Assembly: GCF_018100785.1 (NCBI RefSeq)
Contig: NZ_JAGJEC010000002.1
Coordinates: 1,178,001-1,242,000 of the forward strand
DNA: 64,000 bases
Direction: 5' to 3'
Source of the DNA: Maribacter sp. MMG018
Lineage (GTDB): Bacteria > Bacteroidota > Bacteroidia > Flavobacteriales > Flavobacteriaceae
In this document: positions 24,723 through 53,830 of the stretch, in pieces
Layout of the letters: each line of letters begins with the position of its first letter
How positions within the stretch are numbered: the stretch's first letter is position 1
Program-made: the position numbers and the translations under genes
The notes under the pieces: generated by a model
The model's input: the letters and a program-made list of their open reading frames with translations, nothing else
Database searches by the model: none
Told to the model about the DNA's origin: nothing

Positions 24723-25364
24723 TTAATTTTCTAATTGTTTATGTGAGCCATCACAATTTGGTTTTCGTTTAGAAAGTCCGCAAACACAGTCATTCAACCC
24801 ATAACCATCCATTATTCTTTCCATATTTTTCTCAATTCGAGATATCTTTGTTTTAGATTGCTTTGGTTTATTAAAATGTAAAAGATAGCCTCGTTGGCGA
24901 CCCGCGGTCAAATTCTTAAACGCTTTTTCAAAGTCGGTATTTTCGAAAAAAAATTGTTCCAACTCTTCTGGCACATTAAATTCAGAAGTTTTCTTCTTTT
25001 CAACTTTCTTTTCAGATCTTTCAATTTCGATTGCTTCTCGAACGTACTTTTTTATGGTCGGTTCAAGTTCGTCGATTTCGGGTAAATCAGTAAACCGTAT
25101 TTGTCTAGCGAATTGAACGTTTTCAGTTTGTTTTACTAAAATATTTTCAGGGTCTTTTAGTAATGCACCCTTATAAAACAAAATCGCACAGTAATTTTTA
25201 AACTCGTGTAATAAAACTATATTTTTTCCATTGTCAGTATAGCACGGGTGCATCCATTTGAAGTCTTCATGTAATCCACAATCAATTATGATTTCACGAA
25301 GTCTGGACAATTCAGATTTCCATTTTTTAAGTCCGTTAAGGTATCCGTTTACGTCTTCGCTCAT
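24723..25364 (-). CDS. DUF1801/YdeI-type protein with CDGSH iron-sulfur tail
   Basis: 213 residues from ATG 25364 (an upstream start would place the N-terminus inside the recombination core). Residues 10-120 fit the DUF1801/YdhG fold (MHPCYTDNGKNIVLLHEFKNY), 130-180 the OmdA/YdeI helix pattern. The tail CVCGLSKRKPNCDGSH has Cys193, Cys195, Cys204 and His208 in exact CDGSH spacing, predicting a mitoNEET-like [2Fe-2S] site. Last cassette of the large array; no matching attC end is seen to its left. Confidence 0.8.
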   Translation of the reverse strand: MSEDVNGYLNGLKKWKSELSRLREIIIDCGLHEDFKWMHPCYTDNGKNIVLLHEFKNYCAILFYKGALLKDPENILVKQTENVQFARQIRFTDLPEIDELEPTIKKYVREAIEIERSEKKVEKKKTSEFNVPEELEQFFFENTDFEKAFKNLTAGRQRGYLLHFNKPKQSKTKISRIEKNMERIMDGYGLNDCVCGLSKRKPNCDGSHKQLEN

Positions 25365-25383
25365 TGGTTGTTTCCCCAAAATG

Positions 25384-25628
25384 TTGCACAACGGCAGTCT
25401 GTCTCAAAACCACCTTTGATTATTATTAAATTTAAGCAATTTGTGGTACAATGGATATCGGCCTGAAATAATGTCGAATTTTCACTTGAAGACGAAGCTA
25501 AAGCTTATTGTTTTGCTTTTACTTTTTTGTTCTAAAGCCGAATCCGTAGATTCAGCGACTTCATAAATATACACAGACCTTTCAACTAAGCCCGTAACCC
25601 CTATTGTTTATAGGTTTTGTTGTACAAC
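25384..25628 (-). other. attC-like recombination site 7 (long type)
   Basis: R'' GTTGTACAAC+AA at 25619-25628, R' GTTGTGCAA preceded by C at 25384-25392. Shares the CATAAATATACACAGACC block with other long sites. R'' pairs 10 of 10 with 26340-26349. Confidence 0.75.
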
Positions 25629-25629
25629 G

Positions 25630-26331
25630 TTATTTTATTAATCCACTATTGAAGTCACCTACGGTAAAGTACATATTGTTTTGAAATAAATGCTTGTACG
25701 GTTCCTTTGGTTCTAACAATAATCCCAATTGCAAATGCCTACTATGATTATATCCCATATATTCCGTTCCCACCAATCTAACAGATACTTTTCCGTATTT
25801 TTTGTCGTATTCCAAAATCGCAAAACTATTTAAATTAAATCTTACATCACCTAAACTATTAATACGGTCAAAAAAAGCTTTAACAGAGTTTATTAAGTGA
25901 AAATCAATTTTATTTTCTTCCATATTTCTCTTTATCCAACTATCATTTTTTAGGGCTTTGAGAATACTTTCTTCCAAAAACAGATCAGATATCGAGGTCT
26001 TTTTATTGTTCTCCAGATTTATCGTTTGCACGCTTAGCGAACTGCCAGGTACGCCACAGGCCAAAACTCCTCCTTCACCAGATTCATAGCTGTAGTAATT
26101 GCCAACTAAAGAAAGTGGATTGTAATAAAACCGATAAGAAACACCACATTCATCCGTTTTTTCTTTTTTAATTAAATTTTCTAATTCTCTATCTGCATTA
26201 TATATTTCATTGCCTTTATAGTAAGCGCTTTTTTTGCGGATAATAAGTTCCTGGTTCTCAAAAAGAGTGTCTTTTTGAGAAAATCCTTTTGTGCATAATA
26301 AACAAAGTATGATTAGTGCTAAAATTCTCAT
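25630..26331 (-). CDS. Exported protein, unknown function
   Basis: 233 residues with signal peptide (MRILALIILCLLCTKGFSQ). The mature part has a GEGGVLACGVPGSSLSVQTI stretch with two Cys in the precursor region and ends in aromatic beta strands. It could be a DUF3298/DUF4163-type secreted protein but no motif is decisive. Single gene in its cassette, with perfect 10-base palindromic ends (GTTGTACAAC at both sides). Confidence 0.7.
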   Translation of the reverse strand: MRILALIILCLLCTKGFSQKDTLFENQELIIRKKSAYYKGNEIYNADRELENLIKKEKTDECGVSYRFYYNPLSLVGNYYSYESGEGGVLACGVPGSSLSVQTINLENNKKTSISDLFLEESILKALKNDSWIKRNMEENKIDFHLINSVKAFFDRINSLGDVRFNLNSFAILEYDKKYGKVSVRLVGTEYMGYNHSRHLQLGLLLEPKEPYKHLFQNNMYFTVGDFNSGLIK

Positions 26332-26339
26332 TCTTTAAT

Positions 26340-26526
26340 GTTGTACAACGGCTCTATATGAAAAGTAGCGGTTTCTTTTTGGATGAACACAAGCCGAATT
26401 TTTACATTTTACTATTTATCTTTTTTATTGGAAATTGTCAAATTTAAAAATTTGGCGTATCTGCGAATACACCTTGAACTTTATACTAAGTAACTAACAC
26501 GATATGAACTACATACGTTGTTGCCG
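26340..26526 (-). other. attC-like recombination site 8
   Basis: R'' CGGCAAC+AA at 26520-26526, R' GTTGTACAAC preceded by C at 26340-26349. Interior TTGGAAATTGTCAAATTTAA matches sites 6 and 14. R'' pairs only weakly with the next R' (27834). Confidence 0.7.
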
Positions 26527-26534
26527 AACGTTTT

Positions 26535-27752: not shown

Positions 27753-27833
27753 TAAATTTTGTTCGTTCTTATACTATAGACGCTTTTTTCCGTTAAATGG
27801 TTGTCTGAACGACGGATTTTTTCTCAAATGCAT

Positions 27834-27890
27834 GGTAACGGTTCGGCTATGCACAGTGTCTCGAGAGACATTGCGTACAAGTGTTGTCGG
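27834..27890 (-). other. attC-like recombination site 9 (minimal, 57 bases)
   Basis: R'' CCGACAAC at 27883-27890, R' GTTACC preceded by C at 27834-27839. The inner part folds around GTGTCTCGAGAGACA into a single hairpin. Length equals the shortest classical attC sites. Confidence 0.7.
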
Positions 27891-27892
27891 GG

Positions 27893-28504
27893 CTATTTTT
27901 TTCTTTTTTCATATTCTTCTTCCCACCGTTCTGAGGCACTATTAACCACAGACTGAAATGTACAAGAATCCAATTTCTCAAATTCATAAGTTGACTCCGG
28001 CATTATGTGACCTAGAATACCCGTGAATGTTCCTTTTGAGCAATTGCCCTCTTTAAAATCAATAGACACTGTCCATTTTGAATAAAGGTCGATACCATCG
28101 TCAAAGAGTAATTTTTCTTTGAAGATTCCATCTTTGACTCCGTTTTTAAATTTTCCTTGATACTCGATCTTAGATACCGAAACCCAAGTTGTATCGTATT
28201 CTTTGGTCATGGGATCGTAGAATGAAGAACTGTCCAAGTGGATAAATTTAAAATCTCCATTAAGAACTTTTTGACCTTGCTCGTTAGTCTCAAAAGTATA
28301 GTGGCCACTATATTTTTCGCCAAACTTGTTTCGAATTGGAACTTTAATCAATTCCTCAAGTTCATGTCCAGGAATGGAGTCAAGTCGCTCAATTGAATAT
28401 TCAACTTGTGATTCAATCACATTTTTAGTCTGAGTTTTTTTGGTCTTGGTAGAACAACCGATTATCAGAATCAATGTCAATAAGAAGAATGTAGTTTGTT
28501 TCAC
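27893..28504 (-). CDS. Lipoprotein, unknown function
   Basis: 203 residues from GTG 28504, chosen because the longer ATG frame runs through the attC body while this one starts VKQTTFFLLTLILIIGC, a lipobox. The body is beta-rich with RMxKEYDTTW and a FKNGVKDGIFKEK segment like a MORN repeat. Exported lipoprotein of unknown role. Single gene in the cassette, whose two ends do not match each other, suggesting a hybrid cassette. Confidence 0.65.
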   Translation of the reverse strand: MKQTTFFLLTLILIIGCSTKTKKTQTKNVIESQVEYSIERLDSIPGHELEELIKVPIRNKFGEKYSGHYTFETNEQGQKVLNGDFKFIHLDSSSFYDPMTKEYDTTWVSVSKIEYQGKFKNGVKDGIFKEKLLFDDGIDLYSKWTVSIDFKEGNCSKGTFTGILGHIMPESTYEFEKLDSCTFQSVVNSASERWEEEYEKRKK

Positions 28505-28514
28505 TTTTAAATTA

Positions 28515-28648
28515 GCCTTAACGGTTAATATATAAAAAGTAGGCGATTTAGATGCGCGAAACTTTCGGTTAAGCACAAAGTTTAATACGGGCCAAAAGCC
28601 TTGAATTTATTAATGTTTCGCCTATTTCTCATTTACATTGTTGTAAGC
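28515..28648 (-). other. attC-like recombination site 10
   Basis: R'' GCTTACAAC+AA at 28640-28648, R' GTTAAGGC preceded by C at 28515-28522. Its interior (GCGATTTAGATGC...GAAACTTTCGGTTAA...ACGGGCCAAAAGCC) is almost identical to that of site 15 at 31684, 3.2 kb away. Confidence 0.7.
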
Positions 28649-28657
28649 CGTTTTACT

Positions 28658-29239: not shown

Positions 29240-29293
29240 TCTGTTCTTCAAACCATTTTAAAATCGTTTGATTAGTTTCTTATGGTTCTTCTT

Positions 29294-29395: not shown

Positions 29396-29404
29396 GTTAT
29401 TTAT

Positions 29405-29908
29405 TCATTCTTCTGTTGCTTTTTTGACACTTTTAATTATCTCCTCATAATCGAATTTTGAATACGAACCTTCGCTTAAAACCCTTTTACCTGTCTGCAC
29501 TATTTTATAGTCCTCCTTTTCCCAATCAAAAATGTGGATAGTCACTTTAAAAACTTCATTTAGTTCTTTAAAGTTCATTTTTCCATTTATGTAACCAAAG
29601 TTTTTCTCTGTTTCTATTATTTTAATTGGGATTCCGTTATTCAGATAAATAATTGTCCTTAAACGACCGTAAGAAAGTCCGGTTAACTTAACTATTTTGA
29701 AAATCTGTTTTTTATTGCCCCAAACTTTAATATATCCGCTACCATATTTAGTAACTCCCATTAATTGCCCCAAATCAAATTGAGTTTCCACAAGAGTGGA
29801 ATCCGATTCTATGGATTTTACTTCGTTATTAATTCGGTCAATGTCACTCTCTTGGCCAAAAGCTAAAAATCCGATTAAGGTCAATATGATTATAATTGTT
29901 TTTTTCAT
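29405..29908 (-). CDS. Exported protein, unknown function
   Basis: 167 residues from ATG 29908; the longer frame overlaps the recombination core. Signal peptide MKKTIIIILTLIGFLAFGQ. Mature part mixed alpha/beta with a KYGSGYIKVWGNKKQIFKI segment; no family recognised. Single-gene cassette. Confidence 0.7.
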   Translation of the reverse strand: MKKTIIIILTLIGFLAFGQESDIDRINNEVKSIESDSTLVETQFDLGQLMGVTKYGSGYIKVWGNKKQIFKIVKLTGLSYGRLRTIIYLNNGIPIKIIETEKNFGYINGKMNFKELNEVFKVTIHIFDWEKEDYKIVQTGKRVLSEGSYSKFDYEEIIKSVKKATEE

Positions 29909-29915
29909 AATTGAT

Positions 29916-30009
29916 GTCAACGCTTGGGTTAAACGTAGTACAGTTTTGTGTGCGAGGATTTTCCGAATGAAAATCGGACGTAGTAAACCCTCAACTACCT
30001 TTGTTTAAG
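29916..30009 (-). other. attC-like site 12
   Basis: R'' CTTAAAC+AAA at 30003-30009 and R' GTTGAC preceded by C at 29916-29921. The inner hairpin around GATTTTCCG...CGGA (29957-29979) is visible. Weak flank pairing. Confidence 0.5.
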
Positions 30010-30023
30010 CCCAAAATTGAGGA

Positions 30024-30872
30024 TTAATTTTTACTCAGATCCAATTCCATTTCTAATTGTTCTATATAACACTCAAAACCTAATGATTTAAAAAAACCGG
30101 TTAAATGATTTGACTTTTTATCTACATTAATTACAGAAAATGAGCTTCCATATTGTTCTGCCAAATCAGACATTAGTTTTGTGGCGATTCCCTTTTTCCT
30201 AAATGATTTATGAATGGCAATTTGTTGTATTTTTTTGCTTTTGGGGTTGTAAACTGCATAGCCTATCAATTGCCCATTAATATATGCGGCCCGAGCATCA
30301 TTATCCTTCTTCAAATCGTTCAAAACATTTTTAGAGTTTTGCCACGTTGTATGAATGTCCCAAAAAGATTCCATTAAATCCCAGTCATAGTTCTGTAGTT
30401 CGGTAGTTTCTACAATGGTATTAGAACTTTTAGACGTAAAAACACCTTTAAAACAAGCTAATTCCCTGGTTATCTTAAAACCAACCTTTTCATAAGATTT
30501 TATAGCAGGAGTATTTTTACTTATTACCTCGAGAACAATTTTGTCAATTCCTTTTTCCTTTAGAATGGGCAAAACGTAATCGTACATTTTTTTTGTAATT
30601 CCTTGCCCTCTGTTCTGGGACACAACACCGGTCCCTCCGTTATAGACCACTTTTTGATTGTTGATTGTGTCAAATCCGTGTAAAACAAAAGCGATTAGTT
30701 TTTCATTCTCAAAAACACCAACGGATAAATCAAAATTGATTTTATCTGAAGTCATTTTTGATACCAATTGATCTTCAGTTAATTTAAAAGGTACAAAATA
30801 GTCCGCAAATGATTTATTGAATACGTCTAAAATATCTTTGCTGTTGACACTTTCTAAACTCTTAAAATTCAT
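30024..30872 (-). CDS. Tandem-GNAT N-acetyltransferase
   Basis: 282 residues. Two GNAT folds in one chain: the first (1-145) has the acetyl-CoA loop QNRGQGITKKMYDYVLP, the second (about 150-282) has SFRKKGIATKLMSDLAE. Each is followed by the usual NxxSxxFFxxxGF type of end (KNTPAIKSYEKVGF; KSNHLTGFFKSLGF). Cytoplasmic acyltransferase; substrate unknown, small amines or antibiotics are possible. Single-gene cassette. Confidence 0.9.
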   Translation of the reverse strand: MNFKSLESVNSKDILDVFNKSFADYFVPFKLTEDQLVSKMTSDKINFDLSVGVFENEKLIAFVLHGFDTINNQKVVYNGGTGVVSQNRGQGITKKMYDYVLPILKEKGIDKIVLEVISKNTPAIKSYEKVGFKITRELACFKGVFTSKSSNTIVETTELQNYDWDLMESFWDIHTTWQNSKNVLNDLKKDNDARAAYINGQLIGYAVYNPKSKKIQQIAIHKSFRKKGIATKLMSDLAEQYGSSFSVINVDKKSNHLTGFFKSLGFECYIEQLEMELDLSKN

Positions 30873-30888
30873 TTATTTCTAAAATTAC

Positions 30889-31085
30889 CGTTAACGATCT
30901 TGTATATATAAATAGCATATAAATAGACACCAACTTTTAGGGTAAAATACAGGCCGAATTTTTAAATTTTATTACTTATTTAATGTTTGGAAATTTGTCA
31001 AATCTAAAATTTTGGCGACTTGGCAAAAATGTCCGAACCATAGTGTCAGAAGGCATTCAAGCTATTTTTCACATGGGTTGTTAGC
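30889..31085 (-). other. attC-like site 13
   Basis: R'' GCTAAC+AA at 31080-31085, R' GTTAACG preceded by C at 30889-30895. Interior GGAAATTTGTCAAATCTAAA relates it to sites 6 and 8. R'' pairs 5 of 6 with 31684-31689. Confidence 0.6.
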
Positions 31086-31161
31086 TATAGTTCTTTAGTC
31101 CGCTTCCAGGTTAAAACTACTTCTATTTCTGGATATTTTTATCAGAGAACCTTACGTAATG

Positions 31162-31638: not shown

Positions 31639-31683
31639 TTCTTATTTTAATTCTAAGCAGTCAATAAGGTATTCATAGATGAA

Positions 31684-31832: not shown

Positions 31833-31863
31833 AATTGGTTAATGGAAACAGTCTCTATAGTTT

Positions 31864-32307: not shown

Positions 32308-32340
32308 TTATTATTGTTTTAAACCTCTAGGGATAGCTTG

Positions 32341-32473
32341 CAGGTAACGGCTCGGCTATGCCTAGTTGCGTGGTTTAGCACTTAACGTTACAAGTACACA
32401 CCAAACTGAAAATCCTCACGGATTTTCAGAAGTAGGCTAGCACTAGCAAAAAAATTTGGCCATTGTTATAGCC
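32341..32473 (-). other. attC-like site 15 (medium type)
   Basis: R'' GGCTATAAC+AA at 32465-32473 and R' GTTACCTG preceded by C at 32341-32348. Carries the medium-class interior (ACAAGTACACACCAAACTGA) with an internal hairpin TGAAAATCC/GGATTTTCA. R'' pairs 8 of 9 with 33185-33193. Confidence 0.75.
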
Positions 32474-32483
32474 AGTTTTTTTA

Positions 32484-33155
32484 TTATCCATTTAGTTGCT
32501 TTTTTAAGTCAAGTGTCAAACTATAATTTTCCTCAATTGGGACTAATTTTCTATCGACTTTTTCTATATCCTTACCTTCTTTAGTCCACAAAAATGGTAT
32601 GAAAGAAAACACTTGATTTCCATTTCCTTGTTGAATATCTCTTTCCCAATTCTCCCATCGAAATAGCTCATAAAATTTATCTAAGTCTCCTGTTAATGTC
32701 CAATATAAAAAGTCCGAATATCCAATGTCTAAACATTCCCATTCGAGTGTGTCTTGAGGTAAATAATATATTTTTCCGATTTCTGTTCCAATTCCACCTG
32801 CGTTGATTGCAAAATAACCTCCAATAATGTCATCAGCTATTAATAAATGAGAAGGTCGTTCTCCATAATTTTCAAAAGTTTTTCCTTTATTCCATTCGCT
32901 CAATCCTCTGTCAAGTTTTTCGCTTCCTGAACCCAGAATTCTGAGCCAGCCTTTACTAATCAAAATTCCGCCTGTTTCGTAAATGACAGCTCCCATTGGT
33001 GAGCGCGTAGTGACTTGAGTATTTATCAATTCTCTTTCAGCCCGTTTATCGTTTTTCGGCAATATTTCATATTCATTAGTCGCTTCTCCTAACCACTCAT
33101 TGACCAAATCCCAACCAGGTTCATTTAAATTGATTAGTTCAGTTAATTCTTTCAT
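32484..33155 (-). CDS. DUF2625 family protein
   Basis: 223 residues matching the DUF2625 pattern throughout: ELINLNEPGWDLV..WL, then QVTTRSPMGAVIYETGG and GWLRILGSGSEKLDR near 45-85, NAGGIG, and DFLYWTLTGDLDKFYELFRW near 150. Family of unknown function, cytoplasmic, scattered among bacteria. Single-gene cassette. Confidence 0.85.
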   Translation of the reverse strand: MKELTELINLNEPGWDLVNEWLGEATNEYEILPKNDKRAERELINTQVTTRSPMGAVIYETGGILISKGWLRILGSGSEKLDRGLSEWNKGKTFENYGERPSHLLIADDIIGGYFAINAGGIGTEIGKIYYLPQDTLEWECLDIGYSDFLYWTLTGDLDKFYELFRWENWERDIQQGNGNQVFSFIPFLWTKEGKDIEKVDRKLVPIEENYSLTLDLKKQLNG

Positions 33156-33184
33156 TTTGTTTTAATTCTCGATTTTGTCAAATT

Positions 33185-33318
33185 GGCTACAACTATCTCC
33201 GCTATGAGTAGTTGCATGATTTAGCCGTTAACTTTGCAAGTACGCACCAAACTGAAAATCCACGAGAATTTTAGTAAGTAGGCTATAACTAGCCATTACT
33301 TACCGCCATTGTTCGCAG
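33185..33318 (-). other. attC-like site 16 (medium type)
   Basis: R'' CTGCGAAC+AA at 33311-33318, R' GTTGTAGCC at 33185-33193 but preceded by A rather than C. Interior of the medium class (GCAAGTACGCACCAAACTGA). Confidence 0.65.
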
Positions 33319-33342
33319 TTGTTTTTTTATTCTTTTTTGACG

Positions 33343-33976: not shown

Positions 33977-33983
33977 ATAGTTT

Positions 33984-35825: not shown

Positions 35826-35946
35826 ATTTTATTTTTTAATTTAATAATGAGACAAATTTATCAGCATCACTCATGACCAATGTATCCAAATCCTTTATAG
35901 TTGTAGCTAAAATTTGTTGATTACTTCGAAAGCTGTTTTTAAATGA

Positions 35947-36097
35947 CCCCTAACGTGTTCGTATAAGATTAGTTACGTTGTTTAAGTACCTAATTTAGCA
36001 AATACAAACCGAATAGAAAATCCACGAGAGATTTCGCAAGTAGGCGAGAACAAGCAATTAATTTTAACCAGTATTTTGAGGTGTTGTTAGTTCTAGC
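35947..36097 (-). other. attC-like site 18
   Basis: R'' ends CTAAC+AA (36086-36090); R' GTTAGGGG preceded by C at 35947-35954. Interior has AATCCACGAGAGATTT and AAGTAGGCGAGAACAAGC, a variant of the medium class. The rest of the gap 35826-35946 shows no gene. Confidence 0.6.
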
Positions 36098-36924: not shown

Positions 36925-37055
36925 AGTTCAACATAATTTGTTTTGTGGGTAGTGTTTGGTATTAGTAATCTTCCAAATTTTTTAATTCATTTAGTTCAAA
37001 GCCTTTACATGAAGACTCTTCAAAAGGATAAATGTTACATCTGAATGGAAATTAC

Positions 37056-37122
37056 ATACAACGTTTAGCTATGAGCAGTATGGTCCCACAGGGTGCTATT
37101 GCTTATAGGCTTTGTTGTGCGC
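37056..37122 (-). other. attC-like site 19 (short type)
   Basis: 67 bases. R'' GCGCACAAC+AA at 37114-37122, R' GTTGTAT preceded by C at 37056-37062. Single hairpin CTATGAGCAGTATGG...CTATTGCTTATAG, sister of the sites at 4824 and 50766. Confidence 0.8.
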
Positions 37123-37176
37123 AGTATTTTATGCGTTTATGAGATTTTTTATCAATGAAATTTGCCATAAATGATA

Positions 37177-40756: not shown

Positions 40757-40760
40757 GGTT

Positions 40761-41468: not shown

Positions 41469-41565
41469 TTTTGTAATGCCTTATTTGTTATTTCAAATGT
41501 ATAGTTCTTTTGATTGTTTCAAAAAGACTTAATTTGTCAATTAATAATACCTATTAAGTATAGTT

Positions 41566-42429: not shown

Positions 42430-42438
42430 TTTTGGACT

Positions 42439-42730
42439 TACACACAACGGTCTCGGTTATGAGTAGTTGCATGATTTAGCCGTTAACTTTGCAAGTACGC
42501 ACCAAACTGAAAATCCGATTAGCTAAACGTCGTACGGTTTTAGAGAAGCGATTCCCATTGCGCCACAACCCGAAGCTAAAGCTTATTGTTTAGTTTTATT
42601 TTTTCTTGTCCAAAGCAAATTTTGAATATTTCGCTGGCGCGTAATTTTCAATTTTGCGAACCTCATAAAAATACGCAAACCTTTCGATTAAGCCCGAAGC
42701 CCGTATTGTTTTTAGCCATTGTTACCAAAT
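42439..42730 (-). other. attC-like site 21 (long mosaic type)
   Basis: 292 bases. R'' ATTTGGTAAC+AA at 42721-42730 and R' GTTGTGTGTA preceded by C at 42439-42448. It starts as a medium-class interior (GCAAGTACGCACCAAACTGA) and continues as a long-class one (CATAAAAATACGCAAACC), so it looks like a fusion of two site types. R'' pairs 10 of 10 with 43305-43314. Confidence 0.8.
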
Positions 42731-42734
42731 GCTA

Positions 42735-43289
42735 TTACTCCGTTCGTTTTAGAAAGGTTCCATCATCATTTTTAATAAATACAATTCCCTTGGTAGGCGA
42801 GTAAATAATAAACCCCGAATGACTTCCTGAATTTAATACAAACACATTATCAAAGTCATATCCATCAGAAGAGAAGTTCATTAATTCGTCCTCTAAATTT
42901 TCAGTATTCAGATTATTAATTCCATAAAATCCGGAACTGCCGGAAATAACTATATGAGATTTATTATCACTTCTTTTTTCTATTTCTGTAGTATAAGTTT
43001 CTTCAAGTGTGCCGAATATCAAATCGTTTTCTTGGCTCTCGGCAAGTATTACAGTACAACTGTCATCATTTGAAGAGTTTAGGTCACGATTTTCTATTAC
43101 TTTGGCAGTAGACCTAGCACTTAATAGTTCTTGTTCGGAATTAATAAACTGAATGTTATCCTCCGCCATAATTGGCATAGCAGAGCTTTCAAATTCGTTT
43201 AATACAAAGTTTATTGTTTCGTCGTCAGAACAACCACAACTGTTTAACATTATAAAACATAAAATTCCCGTTAGCGTTTTAATCTTCAT
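42735..43289 (-). CDS. Lipoprotein, unknown function
   Basis: 184 residues. MKIKTLTGILCFIMLNSCGC has a lipobox ending in two Cys, followed by an acidic SDDETINF. The body is acidic with ESQENDLIFGTLEETYTTEI; no family recognised. Single-gene cassette with perfect 10-base complementary ends. Confidence 0.75.
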   Translation of the reverse strand: MKIKTLTGILCFIMLNSCGCSDDETINFVLNEFESSAMPIMAEDNIQFINSEQELLSARSTAKVIENRDLNSSNDDSCTVILAESQENDLIFGTLEETYTTEIEKRSDNKSHIVISGSSGFYGINNLNTENLEDELMNFSSDGYDFDNVFVLNSGSHSGFIIYSPTKGIVFIKNDDGTFLKRTE

Positions 43290-43304
43290 TTCTATTTTTT
43301 TAAT

Positions 43305-43594
43305 ATTTGGTAACGGTTTAACTATGCGCAGTGTAGAGGTACGTCGTCTGCGCTAGCAGCGGGCGAGTTGGTGCGCTGGCCAGTTTCCGTCTAGTCTACG
43401 AGCCAGAGCTTTTTGCTTTGTAATTATCTTTTCTTTTTTAATTGCCAACTTAGCGCAGCGTTATCACGAATTCCTTATTAAAAAAATAGAAATTACATGA
43501 GTAGATCCAAAAGATTTGGTGGACTTAGTAAATAAACCCAAGCCATTACATTTATTACTTTATGCCCTCTTTGCTATAGGCATTGTTAGGTGTA
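43305..43594 (-). other. attC-like site 22 (long type)
   Basis: R'' TACACCTAAC+AA at 43585-43594, R' GTTACCAAAT preceded by C at 43305-43314. Shares a block of about 75 bases with site 20. R'' pairs 10 of 10 with 44113-44122. Confidence 0.8.
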
Positions 43595-43610
43595 GTAATT
43601 TTTTGTTTTA

Positions 43611-44096
43611 TTAAACTGCACTAATTATTGCTAAATATAAGTTTGCTGCATAACCACAATAAATCAATAGTTCCTCAATTTCAAACTCCGAATTATAGTC
43701 AGCCATTTCAACATCATAGTCATAATTTAATTTTGTCCATTTATTTACTGAGTTTAGTGAAAATTGTTGTATCTCAGATTCATTAAAAATTTCAAATCTT
43801 AGTTTCCATTTCGCTTTGTTCTTCAACAGATAGTTAAATTCTTTTCCATTTGGTTTTTCTAGTCTAATAACCATATGACCTTTTAGATTAAAGGTAATGT
43901 CTCCTATTTGGCTTCCATTCTTAAAAATATCGACTTTACTTGTCCAAATATTTTTTGGCTTGATTACAATATCGTTTCCGTTCAATGCGGCTTGAGCTTT
44001 TTCCGAAAACCAATTAGTATAAATTAATTCACAAATTTCATCATCTTCCTTAATTAATTTAAAATTACCTTTTCCAGAACTTGATATTATTTTCAT
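43611..44096 (-). CDS. Cytoplasmic protein, unknown function
   Basis: 161 residues, no signal peptide. Regular beta-strand pattern (KLIKEDDEICELIYTNWF, ITFNLKGHMVIRLEK, AKWKLRFEIFN) like LURP/tubby-type or other beta-barrel folds, ending in a short hydrophobic segment (LLIYCGYAANLYLAIISAV) that could be a membrane anchor. Not recognised. Single-gene cassette. Confidence 0.7.
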   Translation of the reverse strand: MKIISSSGKGNFKLIKEDDEICELIYTNWFSEKAQAALNGNDIVIKPKNIWTSKVDIFKNGSQIGDITFNLKGHMVIRLEKPNGKEFNYLLKNKAKWKLRFEIFNESEIQQFSLNSVNKWTKLNYDYDVEMADYNSEFEIEELLIYCGYAANLYLAIISAV

Positions 44097-44112
44097 TGCA
44101 TTTGTTTTTTAT

Positions 44113-44216
44113 TACACCTAACGGTCTAGTATATGAAAAATTTGGCGGACTTTTCAAATAAGCACAAGCCTTTGTTTTAGCACTTTCTTCCTATTTTTTA
44201 TATCCTTTGTTACCTG
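44113..44216 (-). other. attC-like site 23
   Basis: 104 bases. R'' CAGGTAAC+AAA at 44209-44216, R' GTTAGGTGTA preceded by C at 44113-44122. R'' pairs 8 of 8 with 45348-45355. Confidence 0.75.
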
Positions 44217-44233
44217 CGGTATTTTTATTTTTT

Positions 44234-46266: not shown

Positions 46267-46277
46267 TTGTTTTAATG

Positions 46278-46410
46278 TTGCCAACGGTAACGTATAAGAA
46301 TAGTAGCGGATTTTATGCACTTACTTTTCGGATTGTTACTGTCGTTTGATTTATATATTTCACTTTCGTTTTAGCGATTAAACCACTATTATTATACAAT
46401 GTTGTGCCCA
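46278..46410 (-). other. attC-like site 25
   Basis: R'' TGGGCACAAC at 46401-46410, R' GTTGGCAA preceded by C at 46278-46285. 133 bases; interior unlike the main classes. Confidence 0.65.
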
Positions 46411-46415
46411 GTAAT

Positions 46416-47714: not shown

Positions 47715-47740
47715 TTAATCGATTTGGTAGTTTTTATTGT

Positions 47741-47873
47741 GTACAACGGTCTCGGTTATGCCTAGTTGCGTGGTTTAGCACTTAACGTTACAAGTAAACA
47801 CCAAGCTGAAAATCCGCGAAGATTTTCAGAAGTAGGCGATAACAAGCAATTACCTATAGCCATTGTTGTAGCC
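47741..47873 (-). other. attC-like site 26 (medium type)
   Basis: R'' GGCTACAAC+AA at 47865-47873, R' GTTGTAC preceded by C at 47741-47747. Interior ACAAGTAAACACCAAGCTGA and arms TGGCTATAGG; near-identical to the site at 49933. Confidence 0.8.
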
Positions 47874-47883
47874 AGTTATTTTA

Positions 47884-49926
47884 TTAATTCAATATTTTTC
47901 CGTTCTCATCAAATAATTTAAAGCTTTTATATGATGTTGATAGAAATGATTTTTCTTCTTTAGTCATTAAGTCTTCGAATTTATAACCTGGTAACTCAAA
48001 GCCTTTAGGTATTCCTAACATCAATAAGTTTCCATTATTTAATAAAACAAAGCGTACATATTTTCTTTTCGGAAATGACACATATAAAGAAATTGCATTT
48101 TCAAAGTCTAATTCGTCTACTAATTCCATTGGCATATCTTCGGTCACTCTGTTTCTGTGATTAACAAATGACTTGTCGGTTGTGAATTTTATGTAAACCC
48201 TATTTTCTTTATTATCGTTGATGATTTTTTGTAAGAATGAATGTTCCTCAACACGAGATTTCAATTCGCTTTTTTTGTCTATAAAATTTTGAAGTGGTGT
48301 TATTTCTTCTCCAATTGCCATTGTCAAGTCGTAAATAATCTTTCCGTCAGATTTTTTGTCAATAAGTTCAGCTTGCCAGCAATCGCCATCAAAACTGTAA
48401 GAGCTAATGTGTGCTATAATTGACGATTTAACATCAAAATTATCTAGCTCTTCTTTCTCACGATAAAGTAAATCGTAAAGTTGTTTGTTTGGGTTTTCTA
48501 TTCGAGATTTTAATTCTATTGGAAGTAATGGTACTAAATTTTGAATATCTTTTTCCAACTCTGTTTTTTTGATACTATCTTTTATAAAGTATTGATAGTT
48601 TTTGAGTGTATTATAAAAATGTAGCTTGTTAAAAGCATCAATTTCTTCGTCTTTAATTATTTCGAAAGTTTTATTCTCGAAATATTCTTGTTTGTCAGAA
48701 TTTAAGTTAGCATATGCTTTTGCGATTTTGCTACCATCTGAAAAATAGTGTTTTCGAGTTGCATCTTCAATTCTAACATTGGAACCCAATAAGATTTTAT
48801 CAATATCTAAACCAAGTTTTGCAAGCTCTTCGATATAAGTTTTTCTAACGTTCGAAGCAATATTACTATTTGCATTTCTAGAAACGTTATCATTCATCAC
48901 ATTTAAGAATGACTTAATAAAAACGTCCCAATTTTGAGTTTTGGAAGCTAAACTTGCAATCCTTTTTTGTTGAATGATTGGACCATTATCGAAACTACAA
49001 GTTCCAACCTGTCTATTTAGTCTCATTAATTCTAAAGCTCTTTTTTTGGAAATTAATTGTGCGGTAAAGTCCTCTAAATCTCCATTAGAAACTTTATTTT
49101 CTTCTGCATATTCTAACGCCTCAATTAAGAGTTTTTTGAAATTTTGGTCATTAGTATAAAGGCTATCTGCAAATATTTCTTTTTTAGATTGCCACTCATT
49201 TAATTCCTTTCTTCGGGTAATGAAATCTTGCTCTTTTTTGTAAGGTGGTTTGTTGGTTTTTAGTTCGTAATAATTTACTAATGAGTCAATGATAGTTCTT
49301 TTATATGTTCTAAATCCATTTGATTTATTGTCACTATCATAAAAAATAGAGGTTTCTGGCCTCACTATTAAATCAGTATAGTTAATCCAATCCGAAAGTC
49401 TTTTTGGAAGGTTAATCGAATTGAATTGATTATTCAAATAAAAGCCACGAATTGTGGTTATACTATCTCTTTTGTTTGTATAACTAGAGTAAAAATATTT
49501 TAAGTTATTTTGGTTAAGGGAATCATTAAATGACAGTATAATGCCGTGGTTTTGATTGTTCGCAATTTCAAAAGATTTTATTTCTAATTTCTTTTCATTT
49601 TTATAATCGGAATAAACGTTTTTTATTACCAGTAAATCATTGTCAATTTGTAATCCTTTGAATTTATTTTGTATTTGTTCTAGGTTCTCTGATTTTTTTA
49701 ATTCGGCAAGAAAATTTTTTGGGTCTTTAGTAATGATTTCAAAATAACTAGCTGATGCTTGTGGTAGAGAGTAAAAATTAGGTATTTCACTTCGACTGTA
49801 ATTCCCTTCCAAGTCATTAATAATGGAATCAAGTTTTGGAATATCACTTTCGCTAATTATTGAATTTTGACAGAAAACATTTCCTGAAATCAATAATATT
49901 AGTAGTATGTAAAATGATTTTCTCAT
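47884..49926 (-). CDS. Large exported protein, unknown function
   Basis: 680 residues from ATG 49926 (MRKSFYILLILLISGNVFCQ), the first start with a proper signal peptide; the longer start overlaps the core. Mature part is helix-rich in the middle (about 240-450) and beta-rich at the end (AISLYVSFPKRKYVRFVLL). No family recognised. It is the longest gene in the arrays. Single-gene cassette. Confidence 0.75.
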   Translation of the reverse strand: MRKSFYILLILLISGNVFCQNSIISESDIPKLDSIINDLEGNYSRSEIPNFYSLPQASASYFEIITKDPKNFLAELKKSENLEQIQNKFKGLQIDNDLLVIKNVYSDYKNEKKLEIKSFEIANNQNHGIILSFNDSLNQNNLKYFYSSYTNKRDSITTIRGFYLNNQFNSINLPKRLSDWINYTDLIVRPETSIFYDSDNKSNGFRTYKRTIIDSLVNYYELKTNKPPYKKEQDFITRRKELNEWQSKKEIFADSLYTNDQNFKKLLIEALEYAEENKVSNGDLEDFTAQLISKKRALELMRLNRQVGTCSFDNGPIIQQKRIASLASKTQNWDVFIKSFLNVMNDNVSRNANSNIASNVRKTYIEELAKLGLDIDKILLGSNVRIEDATRKHYFSDGSKIAKAYANLNSDKQEYFENKTFEIIKDEEIDAFNKLHFYNTLKNYQYFIKDSIKKTELEKDIQNLVPLLPIELKSRIENPNKQLYDLLYREKEELDNFDVKSSIIAHISSYSFDGDCWQAELIDKKSDGKIIYDLTMAIGEEITPLQNFIDKKSELKSRVEEHSFLQKIINDNKENRVYIKFTTDKSFVNHRNRVTEDMPMELVDELDFENAISLYVSFPKRKYVRFVLLNNGNLLMLGIPKGFELPGYKFEDLMTKEEKSFLSTSYKSFKLFDENGKILN

Positions 49927-49932
49927 AATTGT

Positions 49933-50064
49933 GTACAACGGTTGGGCTAAGCGTAGTTGCGTGGTTTAGCGATTAACTTTGCAAGTACACACCAAACTGA
50001 AAATCCGCAAGGATTTTCAGAAGTAGGCGATAACAAGCAATTACCTATAGCCATTGTTGTAGCC
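49933..50064 (-). other. attC-like site 27 (medium type)
   Basis: R'' GGCTACAAC+AA at 50056-50064, R' GTTGTAC preceded by C at 49933-49939. The left arm is GGGCTAAGCG as in site 20. Right half identical to site 26. Confidence 0.8.
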
Positions 50065-50066
50065 AG

Positions 50067-50744
50067 TTATTTTTCTGTTCTGTATTCTCCCTCTTTCAAT
50101 TCAGGAAGCCCAATTTTTTTTCGTTCAATGTTTGTACTGTCAATATTTTCAATAAATGGTGGAACAATAGAGTTTGTTTTAGGATCAAATTCATCTCCTG
50201 TTCCATAAAGTTGATTTTTTCCAAAAGCTTTTTTTCTCATATTATCAACATAAGTTGCAAATTTGATAGGTTCCATTCTATTTGCTTTTACTTCTTCCAT
50301 AAGTAAAGCTTGCATTTTATCAATAGTTTCTTTTGGTGTATGGAATAGAAATAACATTGGGTCAATTACAGAGTCTAATTTGGTTTTGCTCAACCATCCA
50401 TATTCTTTTGTTATTTCGTAAAGACGATTAGTATTTCTCAAATCAATTTTGTTCTGAATATTCCAAAGTGAATCCTCTTGTTTTTTAGTTAATTCTGATT
50501 TATGTGATTGCATAAAAGAGATATATTCTTGAGTAGTTAGTTCTTTTGTGCTGTCAATTAACTTTTGGTCAAATGTTCCTAATGAAACATAAGATCTATT
50601 TAGTTGATCTTTTTCTTTCATCTCTTTGAATTCAGCTATTAATTCTGCCTTTATGGAATCCGTTAGTTCTTTTTTATTTTCCTTTTTCTCTTTACAGGAA
50701 ATAAGAGAAATTAAAATGGTTGAAATCAATATTATTTTTTTCAT
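50067..50744 (-). CDS. Lipoprotein, unknown function
   Basis: 225 residues. MKKIILISTILISLISC lipobox followed by a Lys/Glu-rich charged tether (KEKKENKKELTDSIK). Body largely helical, with DSLWNIQNKIDLRNTNRLYE and GDEFDPKTNSIVPPF. No family recognised. Single-gene cassette. Confidence 0.75.
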   Translation of the reverse strand: MKKIILISTILISLISCKEKKENKKELTDSIKAELIAEFKEMKEKDQLNRSYVSLGTFDQKLIDSTKELTTQEYISFMQSHKSELTKKQEDSLWNIQNKIDLRNTNRLYEITKEYGWLSKTKLDSVIDPMLFLFHTPKETIDKMQALLMEEVKANRMEPIKFATYVDNMRKKAFGKNQLYGTGDEFDPKTNSIVPPFIENIDSTNIERKKIGLPELKEGEYRTEK

Positions 50745-50765
50745 AATCTGCGTTTTATAATTACT

Positions 50766-50832
50766 TACAACGTTTTGGCTATGAGCAGTAGCGTCCCGCA
50801 GGGCGCTATTGCTTATAGGTTTTGTTAGCTGC
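50766..50832 (-). other. attC-like site 28 (short type)
   Basis: 67 bases. R'' GCAGCTAAC+AA at 50824-50832, R' GTTGTAA preceded by C at 50766-50772. Arms CTATGAGCAGTAGCG (50780-50794) and CGCTATTGCTTATAG (50805-50819) pair with two wobble positions; inner CCC/GGG closes a tiny loop. The R'' core also supplies the TAA stop of the gene 50825-51781. Best example of a short site. Confidence 0.85.
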
Positions 50833-51781
50833 TGGCTTTTTTTAGCTCTGATATTTGATTTAAAAGTTTAATAGTAATTTCTCCTAAACAAATTGAGTCA
50901 GAAGGTTTAATTATGATGCGTTCTCCCACTTGATATTTGTTGTCTCCAGTTTTTTCGATATACTTTGAGTCTACAATTCCACCTTTGTGTTCTAACAAAT
51001 GTCTTTTTTGTGTGTAAAAATGGAGATGCTTTATTTCAGATTGTGTTAACCAATCCTTGTAGCCCTTTCCAAGCAACGAAACCCATAGTTTATTGCTTTT
51101 TTCAACATTCTGAAATGCATTAAATGGAGCATTTTTTTCCGATAATGAGTTGTAGATTGACTCACTATAATTTTGGAGAGTACCTACTATTTCTGATATG
51201 GATTTTTCAACAATAGACTTGGTTATAATTGTTGCTTCATCTTTATTCAAGCTCGTCTCCAGAGTTTCTTGGATTATTGCTATGTTATTAGCATTTGATA
51301 TTATTTTTTCAATAGCTTTTCTAGCATTAACTTCAATATTATTATCCCCACAAGATGGACAAAAATAGGCAGAGCCAACTACTGAGTATCTGCAATTACA
51401 TTTTTCACATTTTATGTTTAATTCAAATTCGGGTCTTGGTTTTATGGAAATATTTTTTCCAGTTGTTGAGTAGCCATAATCCCAAAGTTCTTTTATTGAT
51501 TTTTTTAAATCGCCAATCACTTCATTGTTTTGTTCAATAGTTAAATAGCTTTTAGCCTCTGAGTTATTCTTGCAAAAAGGACAAAAAACCTCTTCATCTC
51601 TTACAATGTTTAACCAATCTTCTTTGTGTATTTTAAAAAGAGATTCACATTCACTTTTGGGACATTGCCTATCAATCATTCCATTTTTGTCAGGGGTAAT
51701 TGGGATTGATATTTTGGATATATTTTCAATGTCTTGTTGAAACCTTTCCATTTTTTTTAGCATATCCTTTATTGTGCCCAT
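50825..51781 (-). CDS. Double zinc-ribbon protein, unknown function
   Basis: 318 residues, cytoplasmic. Two Cys4 zinc ribbons: Cys40/Cys45 with Cys67/Cys70 (CPKSEC...CPFC), and CEKCNCRYS with FCPSCG at about 125-148. The C-terminal half (170-318) is helical with a conserved-looking SEIKHLHFYTQKRHLLEHKG (HxxxH-type) and ends in leucine repeats. The function is not recognised; similarity to nucleic-acid or RNA-processing ribbons is only general. Cassette next to the GHKL-nuclease fusion. Confidence 0.75.
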   Translation of the reverse strand: MGTIKDMLKKMERFQQDIENISKISIPITPDKNGMIDRQCPKSECESLFKIHKEDWLNIVRDEEVFCPFCKNNSEAKSYLTIEQNNEVIGDLKKSIKELWDYGYSTTGKNISIKPRPEFELNIKCEKCNCRYSVVGSAYFCPSCGDNNIEVNARKAIEKIISNANNIAIIQETLETSLNKDEATIITKSIVEKSISEIVGTLQNYSESIYNSLSEKNAPFNAFQNVEKSNKLWVSLLGKGYKDWLTQSEIKHLHFYTQKRHLLEHKGGIVDSKYIEKTGDNKYQVGERIIIKPSDSICLGEITIKLLNQISELKKASS

Positions 51782-51809
51782 TTTCTAATTTTAGTTCTGT
51801 TTTTAGGTT

Positions 51810-51944
51810 GCATATAACGTCTCGGCTATGCGTAGTGCGGGATTTCAAGGCACTTCACATTCCGTTTAGCACTTAGCTTATTTAATGTAATCACTTTCAT
51901 ATTAGCACTTTTGCCCGCATTACGTATAGCCGTTGTTGGGGCAT
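51810..51944 (-). other. attC-like site 29
   Basis: R'' ATGCCCCAAC+AA at 51935-51944, R' GTTATATGC preceded by C at 51810-51818. The clearest long hairpin: CGGCTATGCGTAGTGCGGG (51823-51841) pairs with CCCGCATTACGTATAGCCG (51914-51932), 17 of 19 Watson-Crick. Confidence 0.85.
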
Positions 51945-51950
51945 CGTGTT

Positions 51951-53696
51951 TTATTCTTTTTTCAATTCTTCTAACATCCATTCTAGTCGATTCCTTGCTG
52001 AACTTATACAGTCCAAATAACTCATATAAATAATATCTGACTGAACGGATTTAATTGTTTTGTCAATCTTCCCTCCCATGAGAATTATATCTATGGGTTG
52101 ATTGCCAAAATATTCTGCTAACTCGTCTTTGTATTTTAATGCTTGGGCTTCTGTATCTCTAGTTAACGTGAAACTTGGTCTTTTAAATTCTATAAGAAGT
52201 AATCTTCGACTGACTGTCCTTGAAAGAAATAAATCTGGTCTTTTCTTAGAGTTTTTACCCTTATACTTTTTATCAAGCATGTTTTTAATAGCAGTCTTCA
52301 AATTAGTGTCAGAAAAGAGTACGGAATAATCATCTCCAAGAATCCAAGTACTTTTCTCTAAAGCTTCATGAATATGTTTTTCCAATGTCTTTGGGTCGTG
52401 TATGAGAATGGAAAGTTCATCCAAGTACTTTAGTCTATTAATTGCTTGACTCGTGACAATACTCATTTCTAAAAGCCCGAATTCTGAAAGAGCACCCGCA
52501 AATTTTTCTATATCATGGTTTTCAGTTTCTTTGATATTTGAAACGATATCCCAATAATGGTCTTTTTCCATTGCAGAAACCATAACTGAAATTACAGTAT
52601 TTATTCGGTCTTCAGTTTCGCCATAGAACTTTTCAAGAGTCTTGTATAATGCCTTTTTGGCGAATGGTTGCTTAAATTCGGGAAGCTTTGATAGTTCTTT
52701 ATTTATTTTCCTTTGATACCTGGCTCTAGCCATTTTCATGTCTGTTGCAAAAACTTCATCAACAGATTTTTTAACGTTTTTAGTGGCATCGTCTAGAATA
52801 GTTTTATAGAGTTTGCTATTCTCAATAATAGCACCATGATCAGCTGTAACATCGTCTTCCAAATCATCACAAATTATTTCGCCATAAATTCGATTCTTTA
52901 ATTTCTTGGGAATTAAATCATCATCATTTAATAGATTTTGAGGTCGACCTATAATCTTGTTATTTACTCTTGTTACAATTCCTGCTTGTTTTATTGGCTT
53001 TGGTGTTATGGTATATTTTAAAACAGCTTCCTTTCCTTCGTGAATAATTTTCTTTTCATAAGTTTTACCAGCTAAGTCTTCAACTCCTAGCTTTTCATTG
53101 TTAATGAAAAGTTCAAAATCATGTTCCCGACCGTAGTCCCACATAAGAATTTCGCCTAGTCTAGTTGGATTTGGAAAATCTAAGTTTTGATTAAGTCCAA
53201 ACAGAGTTATTATAGTTCCGTGTTTTTCTTTGTCGCAAGATTCTGTCTCTATGAATAAAGGCACTTTTTCAAGGTCATAATTTCCTTTAGCAAGTTCGGA
53301 CTTATTAATTTTAAGTGTTGTTTTTACTCCATTAGAAAAAGTCTCAATCTGCATTATTTCAGCGACCATAAGACCTGAGAATTTACCGATACCTTTTCTG
53401 CCTTTTACTTTTCGTTTCTTCTTGAATGTCGTATCACCTTTTCTACTTGTCCGACTATTAGCAACGTTTAAATATTCTGAACGAACTTCATTTTCTTTCA
53501 TGCCTGAACCATTGTCAGCAACAATTATTTTCGGGTCTGGTGTCAATTCTTTTGGCAAGAAAATTTCAACCTTTTCAGAGTCCGCATCATATGCGTTGTC
53601 GATAAGTTCTTTAATAGCATCTTCGGTCGAACGATACGTTTCACCTAACAGTTCGGCTAATTTGGTGTCTACTTTGAAGAATGCTTGTTTACTCAT
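51951..53696 (-). CDS. GHKL ATPase fused to PD-(D/E)XK-like nuclease domain
   Basis: 581 residues. N-terminal Hsp90/MORC-type ATPase: N-box KELIDNAYDAD (Glu30, Asn34), G1 DNGSGM (61-66), G2 GRKGIGKFSG (99-108) then a transducer-like region. Residues 300-460 are helical. The C-terminal 95 residues have RPDLFLSR then LLLIEFKRP (Asp488, Glu503, Lys505) and a following Gln/Tyr helix, the pattern of a PD-(D/E)XK nuclease of the Shedu/DUF4263 type. An ATP-regulated nuclease, possibly anti-phage, is inferred. First cassette of the large array. Confidence 0.8.
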   Translation of the reverse strand: MSKQAFFKVDTKLAELLGETYRSTEDAIKELIDNAYDADSEKVEIFLPKELTPDPKIIVADNGSGMKENEVRSEYLNVANSRTSRKGDTTFKKKRKVKGRKGIGKFSGLMVAEIMQIETFSNGVKTTLKINKSELAKGNYDLEKVPLFIETESCDKEKHGTIITLFGLNQNLDFPNPTRLGEILMWDYGREHDFELFINNEKLGVEDLAGKTYEKKIIHEGKEAVLKYTITPKPIKQAGIVTRVNNKIIGRPQNLLNDDDLIPKKLKNRIYGEIICDDLEDDVTADHGAIIENSKLYKTILDDATKNVKKSVDEVFATDMKMARARYQRKINKELSKLPEFKQPFAKKALYKTLEKFYGETEDRINTVISVMVSAMEKDHYWDIVSNIKETENHDIEKFAGALSEFGLLEMSIVTSQAINRLKYLDELSILIHDPKTLEKHIHEALEKSTWILGDDYSVLFSDTNLKTAIKNMLDKKYKGKNSKKRPDLFLSRTVSRRLLLIEFKRPSFTLTRDTEAQALKYKDELAEYFGNQPIDIILMGGKIDKTIKSVQSDIIYMSYLDCISSARNRLEWMLEELKKE

Positions 53697-53714
53697 GGTT
53701 TCGTTTTTTACATG

Positions 53715-53830
53715 TGCCCCAACTCGGGCTATCCGTACCTGTAAAGTTTACTACCTGCATTTGTAAGTACGCACCCAACCTAAAATTCCAGTGAATTTTT
53801 AAAGCCAAGCATGCACCAACATGTATATTA
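53715..53830 (-). other. Degenerate attC-like site 30 at array start
   Basis: R' GTTGGGGCA at 53715-53723 is intact and pairs 9 of 9 with 51935-51943, followed leftwise by GGATAGCCCGA. The interior keeps TGTAAGTACGCACCCAACCT of the medium class, but no R'' AAC+AA can be found at its right end, so the outer half has decayed or been replaced. Confidence 0.6.

Follow-up and report, generated by a model that had tools for sequence, protein, structure and literature searches.

Vibrio-type chromosomal integrons consist of the integrase IntI, an attI site and arrays of attC sites, and IntI recognises folded attC by means of its extra I2 domain, which contacts the extrahelical bases. Escudero et al. 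(PMC4792948) have called the question of how I2 and attC arose a chicken-egg paradox. Integrons as such have been reported from the phylum Bacteroidota (PMC8618304, PMC2426708), and for the Bacteroidetes the IntegronFinder 2 paper (PMC9024848) mentions integrase genes of an earlier survey without cassettes as well as one complete integron, that of Salinibacter ruber. The partial texts that we consulted from the open literature, which leaves preprints and most subscription journals outside, contained no description of integrons of Flavobacteriaceae or of integron integrases lacking the extra domain. Here we report on a stretch of 64,000 nucleotides of Maribacter sp. MMG018 (Flavobacteriaceae; contig NZ_JAGJEC010000002.1, positions 1,178,001 to 1,242,000), termed the window in the following. 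An original prediction made from the letters alone had placed an integron-type array of gene cassettes at 24723..53723 of this window. According to our analysis, the window very probably holds parts of an integron-type cassette collection that belongs to a class of Bacteroidota integrons run by an integrase without I2. The kind of system is known; its integrase type, the direction of its arrays and its site architecture make up a variant for which the consulted open literature gave no description.

The sites were searched with a covariance model (R1) trained on 58 sites, 57 from other genomes and one from contig C5 of the own genome, the window sites being excluded. At E≤1 the model matched the window 22 times, always on the minus strand and either between genes or at gene ends, and 19 of these matches reached E≤0.01. 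Controls of 177 kb, composed of 77 kb of the own genome and 100 kb of five loci with canonical IntI from the same phylum, gave zero matches at E≤1. Thus, attC-like folds on the minus strand between genes, as claimed by the original prediction, were recovered by the covariance search. The number of about 23 sites was also a fair one, because half-decayed sites recognised only by eye have to be added to the R1 sites (~29290-29390, 33788-33985, 40531-40750, 42723, 43314-43587 and 45355-45560). The extent had been drawn too narrowly: 17 R1 sites (14 at E≤0.01) indeed lie within 24723-53723, but five more are located in the left part at 999-6962 and others on the contigs C1, C5, C10 and C11. A typical site starts on the minus strand with the gene end, (A/T)AAC-N7-AAC, a 3-nt spacer and L'' (GGCTAT, GTGTATA or similar); then follow a long middle part, L', a spacer of 5-6 nt, GTT-N7-A(A/T)T and the start of the next gene. 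The proposed order of gene then attC and the R''/L''/L'/R' layout were confirmed, and the cassettes follow one another in tandem, for the most part in one orientation. As a signature, the simple palindrome pattern GTTGTRYACAAC was discarded. It gave 13 matches compared to a mean of 7.34 in shuffled sequences, 3 of 100 shuffles reached 13, and it is hardly above chance because its seven bases vary.

Complementarity was scored for each gene as the best match between the ten bases after the upstream GTT and the ten bases before the downstream AAC. For the 27 genes of the interval, own ends agreed on average at 4.07 of 10 positions, compared to 2.77 between the ends of different genes; within one site, whose halves are those of two adjacent genes, the mean agreement was 3.19. 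The real pairing sum was reached by none of 20000 permutations, and for the six genes of the left part by 188 of 20000. These tests were based on automatic windows; the 16 curated cassettes mentioned further below are a better set but no random sample. Since the own ends of a cassette pair better than other ends, the pairing links the two ends of one unit, which is what might be expected had the unit been an excised circle. The complementarity across genes stated in the original prediction is therefore real and far above chance, but its figure of 10 of 10 bases for the four cassettes 25619/26340, 40747/42439, 42721/43305 and 43585/44113 was wrong. All four have an A.C mismatch at position 8 outside GTT/AAC, and two of them pair at 10, the other two at 9 of 11 positions.

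The window was compared with the sister species G515, considering matches of at least 150 bp. G515 matches the flanks at 9793-24518 (92.6%) and 54199-63999 (89.7%), and shares one cassette of this array, located at 47860-49939 (97.9%), with exact borders. While the flanking genes are 31.7 kb apart in MMG018, their distance in G515 is 15.3 kb, and there the shared cassette stands first behind a leader with an attI-like end. Both genomes further have in common the segment 1-1149 (97.5%) and, likewise to the left of 9793, several leader-like segments. Hence, turnover rather than a fixed gene order was encountered in this relative. Exchange reaches further: a cassette of 850 bp at locus L082 recurs in eight other loci with nucleotide identities of 75-91%, and the cassette that comes first in Zunongwangia mangrovi has 98.2% identity to one at locus L048. 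The borders of shared cassettes were determined in 16 comparisons with 500 nt of flanking DNA, except for one comparison that had 191 nt at one end. The starts of all 16 alignments ranged from 29 nt ahead of GTT to 33 nt past it, and their ends from 34 nt ahead of AAC to 131 nt past it. Six alignments, four of which concern the 850-bp cassette, began 0-13 nt ahead of GTT and stopped 121-131 nt past AAC; as the latter distance corresponds to the length of an attC, these six cover the gene plus its attC.

Because no integrase was detected in the window or its 20-kb flanks, the designation as a cluster of attC sites without integrase (CALIN), suggested at the outset, may well describe the window array. 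An IntI with patch III, for which the original prediction had proposed to search the rest of the genome, did not turn up: the search of the own genome with the IntI model TIGR02249 gave no match over the cut-off. Instead, other arrays of this genome have at their attI a tyrosine recombinase without patch III, which is intact on C5 and decayed at the C10 end. Contig C5 (5.4 kb) encodes a tyrosine recombinase of 400 aa (L009:515-1717) with the domains Phage_int_SAM_4 and Phage_integrase. It fails the integron-integrase model TIGR02249 (195.8 bits, cut-off 265) and barely passes NF040815 (221.2 bits, cut-off 220). The first of four cassettes starts 27 nt past the integrase stop codon and runs in the same direction. 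The decayed end of the same integrase at the C10 end (83% over 250 nt) speaks for this contig of only 5.4 kb being part of the genome.

To place this arrangement in a wider frame, 40 integrase regions of the family were fetched, of which L056 was dropped for want of a matching frame of at least 200 aa and replaced in number by the own locus L009; in addition, at least 80 named loci were collected, the first 59 of which entered the attI count, the other 21 being weaker matches. Within the close clade, an attI motif, ATATAACNAGTT, follows the integrase stop. No more than 200 nt behind the stop codon, its relaxed form was present in 15 of the 20 close-clade loci from the set of 40 and in 50 of the 59 named ones, its strict form in 14 and 39, the strict form occurring elsewhere in the same loci three times in 340 kb and not at all in 687 kb, respectively. 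Other clades possess different sequences behind the integrase, e.g. a palindrome ending in CAATTGTTG. Chains of at least four units were found downstream of the integrase in 20/40 loci and upstream in 0/40, the upstream part having a median of only ~3 kb. At least three units were reached by 21 of the 40 loci and by 7 of 200 dinucleotide shuffles, which were used because the GTT...AAC unit is its own reverse complement and a reverse-complement control is invalid. In 37 of the 59 named loci the contig reached no further than 3 kb beyond the integrase on the downstream side, and in two this was the case on the upstream side; assemblies that break in arrays would be expected to show such a pattern. 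The attI junction was compared between C5 with its intact integrase, the C10 end and G515, which retains an integrase remnant of 82 residues. Identity amounted to 74-75 of 75 nt through GTT and dropped to 22-28 of 60 nt beyond it. Decayed 3' ends of C5-type integrases in front of an intact attI and an array were observed at L214:2852-3092 (C10 end) and L219:456-735 (G515). Thus, such platforms lose the integrase yet keep the array.

Of the 199 genomes in the family sample, 89 contained a relative of the C5 integrase when the limit was set at E≤1e-60. At E≤5.1e-86, a cut chosen by us that roughly delimits the C5 integrase clade, the number was 49. Across the phylum, 79 of 296 genomes had a relative at E≤1e-50, a figure that includes many shorter proteins and gives no prevalence. 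The named loci, Bacteroidota by their titles, include Maribacter, Leeuwenhoekiella, Gillisia, Polaribacter and Lutibacter; further genera listed are Winogradskyella, Cyclobacterium, Algoriphagus and Marinilabilia. Plasmid and phage records disclosed, at the limits used, only relatives with less than 60% identity. Among them, the plasmids H3-H12, nearly all of Acinetobacter, encode a tyrosine recombinase ~46% identical to residues 145-377 of the C5 enzyme.

In the alignment of the recombinases, R236, K261, H325, R328, H351 and Y360 were invariant across 31 rows including XerC/D; we take these R-K-H-R-H-Y residues to be the catalytic set of tyrosine recombinases. At the position of I2 the new integrase family showed no insert. 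The distance between the motifs G.R..E and HxLRH was 133 residues in 18/18 IntI of the phylum (two of 20 loci had no usable frame), compared to 90-92 residues in 39 of the 40 loci, the remaining value of 209 being taken as a stray motif match, and in all 76 measurable named relatives, four of 80 lacking a motif. Two Xer-like recombinases encoded elsewhere in the own genome, which we read as XerC and XerD, gave 96-98 residues. The C5-type integrase thus lacks the I2/patch III insert. Its nearest solved structure is XerA, and in a tree of 82/83 rows IntI (100/99) was separated from the new family (99/91). Because the tree was rooted at the midpoint, had a long XerC branch and left out the archaeal XerA, a position as sister of IntI is not established.

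Most of the aligned members carry an extra N-terminal domain with weak but consistent profile and structure matches to HARP/XPB-DRD, the HARP domain being known from SMARCAL1 and DRD denoting the damage recognition domain of XPB. When Pfam HARP was searched across the 199 genomes, the integrase of G131 was the best match (2.3e-4) and that of G148 the fifth, all of them below the cut-off; the remaining matches mostly look like chance. A profile search of this domain in the PDB yielded nothing useful. The domain is not generally essential, since the short integrase of L077 (305 aa) lacks it and still has an array of 11 units.

The anatomy of the sites was studied on 143 units selected by positions 1-7 only, from the 20 of 40 integrase loci with at least four units, and compared with 89 units from those 12 of 20 same-phylum IntI loci that had as many. 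At position 8, 106 of the 143 units had A.C and 10 were paired, while positions 9, 10 and 11 were paired in 111, 120 and 103 units, respectively. The canonical units were paired at position 8 in 56 of 89 cases and at positions 9-11 in 29, 35 and 30. As only 17 of these 89 have an A at R' position 8, A.C can be at most that common there. Read on the bottom strand, the A (R') and C (R'') of the coding strand become T and G, which form a wobble where the top strand has a mismatch. The R stem of the window-type sites is therefore longer (~11 positions) than that beside canonical IntI and contains a conserved A.C at position 8. An L stem was present in 118 of 128 sites, and in 117 of these 118 the spacer on the R' side exceeded that on the R'' side by 2-3 nt. 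Folds of these 128 related sites were predicted with DNA parameters for the circle form and the array form. Mean energies were -28.0 (bottom) and -23.6 kcal/mol (top) for the circle form and -21.6 and -18.6 kcal/mol, respectively, for the array form. In the circle form the bottom strand lay below the top strand in 125/128 sites; the circle form lay below the array form in 123, the reverse being true for four.

From these data the following mechanism can be proposed. One gene, sometimes two, together with a downstream attC-like site would constitute a cassette. The bottom strand of the excised circle would fold by pairing of R'' with R' over ~11 positions, including the conserved G.T wobble, and of L'' with L', and 3 versus 5-6 nt would form an asymmetric internal loop. 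The hairpin would be cut by a tyrosine recombinase that has XerA and IntI as relatives, possesses the R-K-H-R-H-Y residues and is devoid of the I2/patch III insert. The same enzyme would cut the attI directly behind its own gene, a double-stranded site that reads ATATAACNAGTT in one clade, and the cassette would be inserted at the GTT of attI. The comparisons show cassettes whose ends pair and whose borders are exact, their turnover and their exchange between genera, an attI and an array that are linked to the integrase, and a site architecture unlike that of the canonical IntI loci used for comparison. The exchange would then be catalysed by the I2-less integrase, presumably with the single-stranded bottom strand as substrate, and the intact C5 integrase would serve the window array in trans. 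We infer that the cut lies between G and TT, with which the borders agree without resolving it. More speculatively, the XPB/HARP-like N-terminal domain might help to recognise the hairpin in place of I2. Taken as a whole, we lean towards the view that Bacteroidota hold a separate integron class, whose integrase never acquired I2 (or replaced it) and recognises folded bottom-strand attC through the longer R stem with its G.T wobble and the asymmetric loop, mostly aided by the XPB/HARP-like N-terminus.

An ordinary CALIN, in which a canonical patch III IntI, lost or acting from another host, built the cassettes and the nearby recombinase is unrelated, would explain why no integrase stands beside the window array. 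Canonical IntI is common elsewhere in the sampled phylum (84 of 296 genomes over the cut-off), and IntI1 recombined a predicted attC of a Polaribacter phage (PMC9892861). However, besides the own genome being devoid of IntI over the cut-off, the sample of the same family, order and class contained it only in G233, a member of the same class. Moreover, it is the I2-less integrase that has the attI-like junction directly behind it, and the sites are built differently from canonical IntI sites of the phylum: the R stem differs and R1 found nothing in five such loci, so that the sites are not the ordinary attC sites implied by the original prediction. The direction of the arrays differs as well, since at least four units stood upstream and divergent in 11/20 canonical loci and downstream in one. 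We therefore regard an ordinary CALIN as unlikely. Very unlikely in our view is an exchange of Xer/dif-like modules on double-stranded core sites with incidental palindromes. The closeness of the integrase to XerA among solved structures and the resemblance of the attI core to a short double-stranded site would fit such modules. Yet the variable positions 1-7 pair between the ends of one cassette more than across the site in the array, which predicts folding of the excised circle and would be needless for a double-stranded core, and the bias of folding towards the bottom strand speaks against it, too. Static intergenic repeats, similar to repetitive extragenic palindromes (REP) or miniature inverted-repeat transposable elements (MITE), with a gene order caused by ordinary recombination, match the palindromic, intergenic, repeated and partly decayed nature of the sites but are extremely improbable and already contradicted, as units shared across genera have one border near GTT and the other in the stretch from AAC to the attC end, the three compared attI junctions break at the identical base and the pairing joins cassette ends.

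Several points nevertheless weigh against a cassette system driven by an I2-less integrase. The evidence for it is comparative throughout, and we infer recombination itself from it. The window array is partly decayed and its leader has an attI-like end of another type than the attI of the C5 integrase, for which reasons this enzyme may not serve the window array. The window's own sites also fold less clearly: nine of the 16 curated cassettes had a partner site, and the bottom strand lay below the top strand in six of these nine and not in the other three, with the circle form below the array form in eight; besides, all folding counts refer to related sites and not to independent events. Only 20 of the 40 integrase loci show at least four clear units, and the relaxed attI motif is missing from 5/20 and 9/59 close-clade loci. 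Among the six further members of the genus that were scanned, G508, G514 and G515 contain 40, 21 and 17 sites, respectively, without an integrase relative at E≤1e-50, although G515 keeps the remnant mentioned above. The result with IntI1 and the phage attC suggests that some sites of this host group may suit canonical IntI (PMC9892861). Finally, the NCBIfam description of NF040815 already reads 'site-specific tyrosine recombinase/integron integrase'; this naming shows that XerA-like enzymes and the term integron integrase have already been linked by someone.

The collection extends well beyond the window. The own genome contains at least 63 R1 sites at E≤0.01, which is a lower bound as 150 of 2326 candidates were scored. 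Sites listed outside of the window are located at the C10 end (1322011-1329112), the C1 start (8-48953), on C11 (1707-13862), at C1:1676529-1680337 and on C5. The site scan of six further members of the genus gave 17-53 sites each. The single-contig genome G490 of the same genus has runs of sites at C1:3444904-3475717 and 3593297-3638482, each beside its own integrase, and is a good complete reference for this integron class. Beside the one G490 integrase tried, the strict chain rule called just two units, and this rule hence misses many sites.

The attC-like sites and cassettes of the window described in the following, as well as the leaders at 7924..8240 and 53840..53990, are assigned to the minus strand. 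The best attC-like site of the window is 49926..50069 (109.9 bits with R1), followed by 47734..47878 (99.9), 2490..2636 (95.6), 35941..36086 (94.1), 32335..32478 (73.5), 999..1146 in the left array (70.1), 33180..33324 (69.9), 51805..51949 (56.7), 28509..28653 and 46273..46414 (54.3 each), 44109..44222 (43.5), 26336..26533 (32.1) and 29908..30037 (29.4 bits). Short sites are 50758..50837 (52.2), 37049..37127 (44.7), 4818..4897 (36.3) and 27826..27899 (27.4 bits), long ones 5231..5471 (41.1) and 6753..6962 (37.9 bits). Weak matches were obtained at 25523..25632 (17.6 bits, E 0.06), 42436..42561 (17.2 bits, E 0.08) and 30882..31093 (15.9 bits, E 0.14).

The cassettes of the left part comprise 1135..1637 (gene 1150-1605; R'/R'' complementary at 7/12 positions, A.C at position 8), 1873..2503 (gene 1890-2477; eight consecutive complementary positions), 6951..7924 (gene 6971-7912; 10/12), which stands beside a leader and encodes a TIR-domain protein (Pfam TIR_2), and 8638..9554 (gene 8652-9542; 10/12). 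The leader at 7924..8240 has an attI-like end made up of the palindrome CGTACC..GGTACG and then CAATTGTTG; it has two matches in G515 (87-89%), and tblastn disclosed no integrase remnant. The left array has two copies of a leader that bears the palindrome and an attI-like end (3092-3190 and 7924-8240) and part of another at 9560-9774, which gives the impression of duplicated arrays or of a captured leader. Short reading frames between cassettes at 3690-4080 resemble a row of small peptide genes. Within the main array, 25619..26349 (gene 25630-26331) and 43585..44122 (gene 43611-44096) pair in R at 10/11 and 42721..43314 (gene 42735-43289) at 9/11 positions, all with A.C at position 8, while 32467..33193 (gene 32484-33155; R'/R'' 9/12) encodes a DUF2625 protein according to Pfam. 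By Pfam, the cassette 40747..42448, in which R' at 42448 pairs with R'' at 40749, contains two genes, for a methyltransferase (minus strand) and a LysR regulator (plus strand). They are divergently transcribed and enclosed by a single R' and a single R''. The cassette shared with G515 (47860..49939, gene 47884-49938) has 2080 bp, its ends being AAC and GTT. In the rightmost cassette, 51937..53723, the first six positions of R'/R'' pair; its gene (51951-53696) encodes an HATPase (Pfam) with a Shedu-like C-terminus scoring below the Pfam cut-off. This product and the TIR protein suggest that phage-defence genes are among the cargo. Comparison by eye revealed a truncated leader copy without attI-like end at 53840..53990. 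Immediately to the right of the array lies a tRNA-Ser gene (54199-54284); Rfam at gathering scores yielded tRNA-Ser alone.

The question of how I2 and attC arose becomes directly testable with a family that lacks I2 and yet has folded sites and cassette arrays. If our interpretation is true, single-stranded cassette recombination needs no I2, and the family would be a living answer to the question of how attC might have been present prior to I2. It would also add a large cassette pool for Bacteroidota, whose cassettes could be swapped as in the integrons known for spreading antibiotic resistance.

Compared with described systems, the recombinase shares the lack of I2 with XerA and with XerC/D, as employed in the integration of CTXphi; there, however, no cassettes are involved, a phage without integrase hijacks the XerCD of its host, and the stem of the site has no extrahelical bases (PMC4792948). 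With the archaeal integrons the system has in common that attI lies immediately downstream of the integrase gene and that arrays occur outside the classical taxa, but archaeal IntI possess the IntI-specific additional domain around patch III (PMC9668308). Like a CALIN, the window has many attC-like sites and no adjacent integrase, whereas elsewhere in the same genome arrays start at an attI that follows an integrase, the latter being intact on C5 and decayed at the C10 end. Much of the layout is shared with Vibrio-type chromosomal integrons: the gene-then-attC order, R''/L''/L'/R', the AAC/GTT core, the insertion at attI, the long arrays, the better folding of the bottom strand and, in several arrays, a fairly constant attC length are the same. 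The new class differs from them by an integrase without I2/patch III, mostly with an extra N-terminal domain, by arrays that follow the integrase stop codon and run in the direction of the integrase, and by an R stem of ~11 positions with A.C at position 8, i.e. G.T on the bottom strand.

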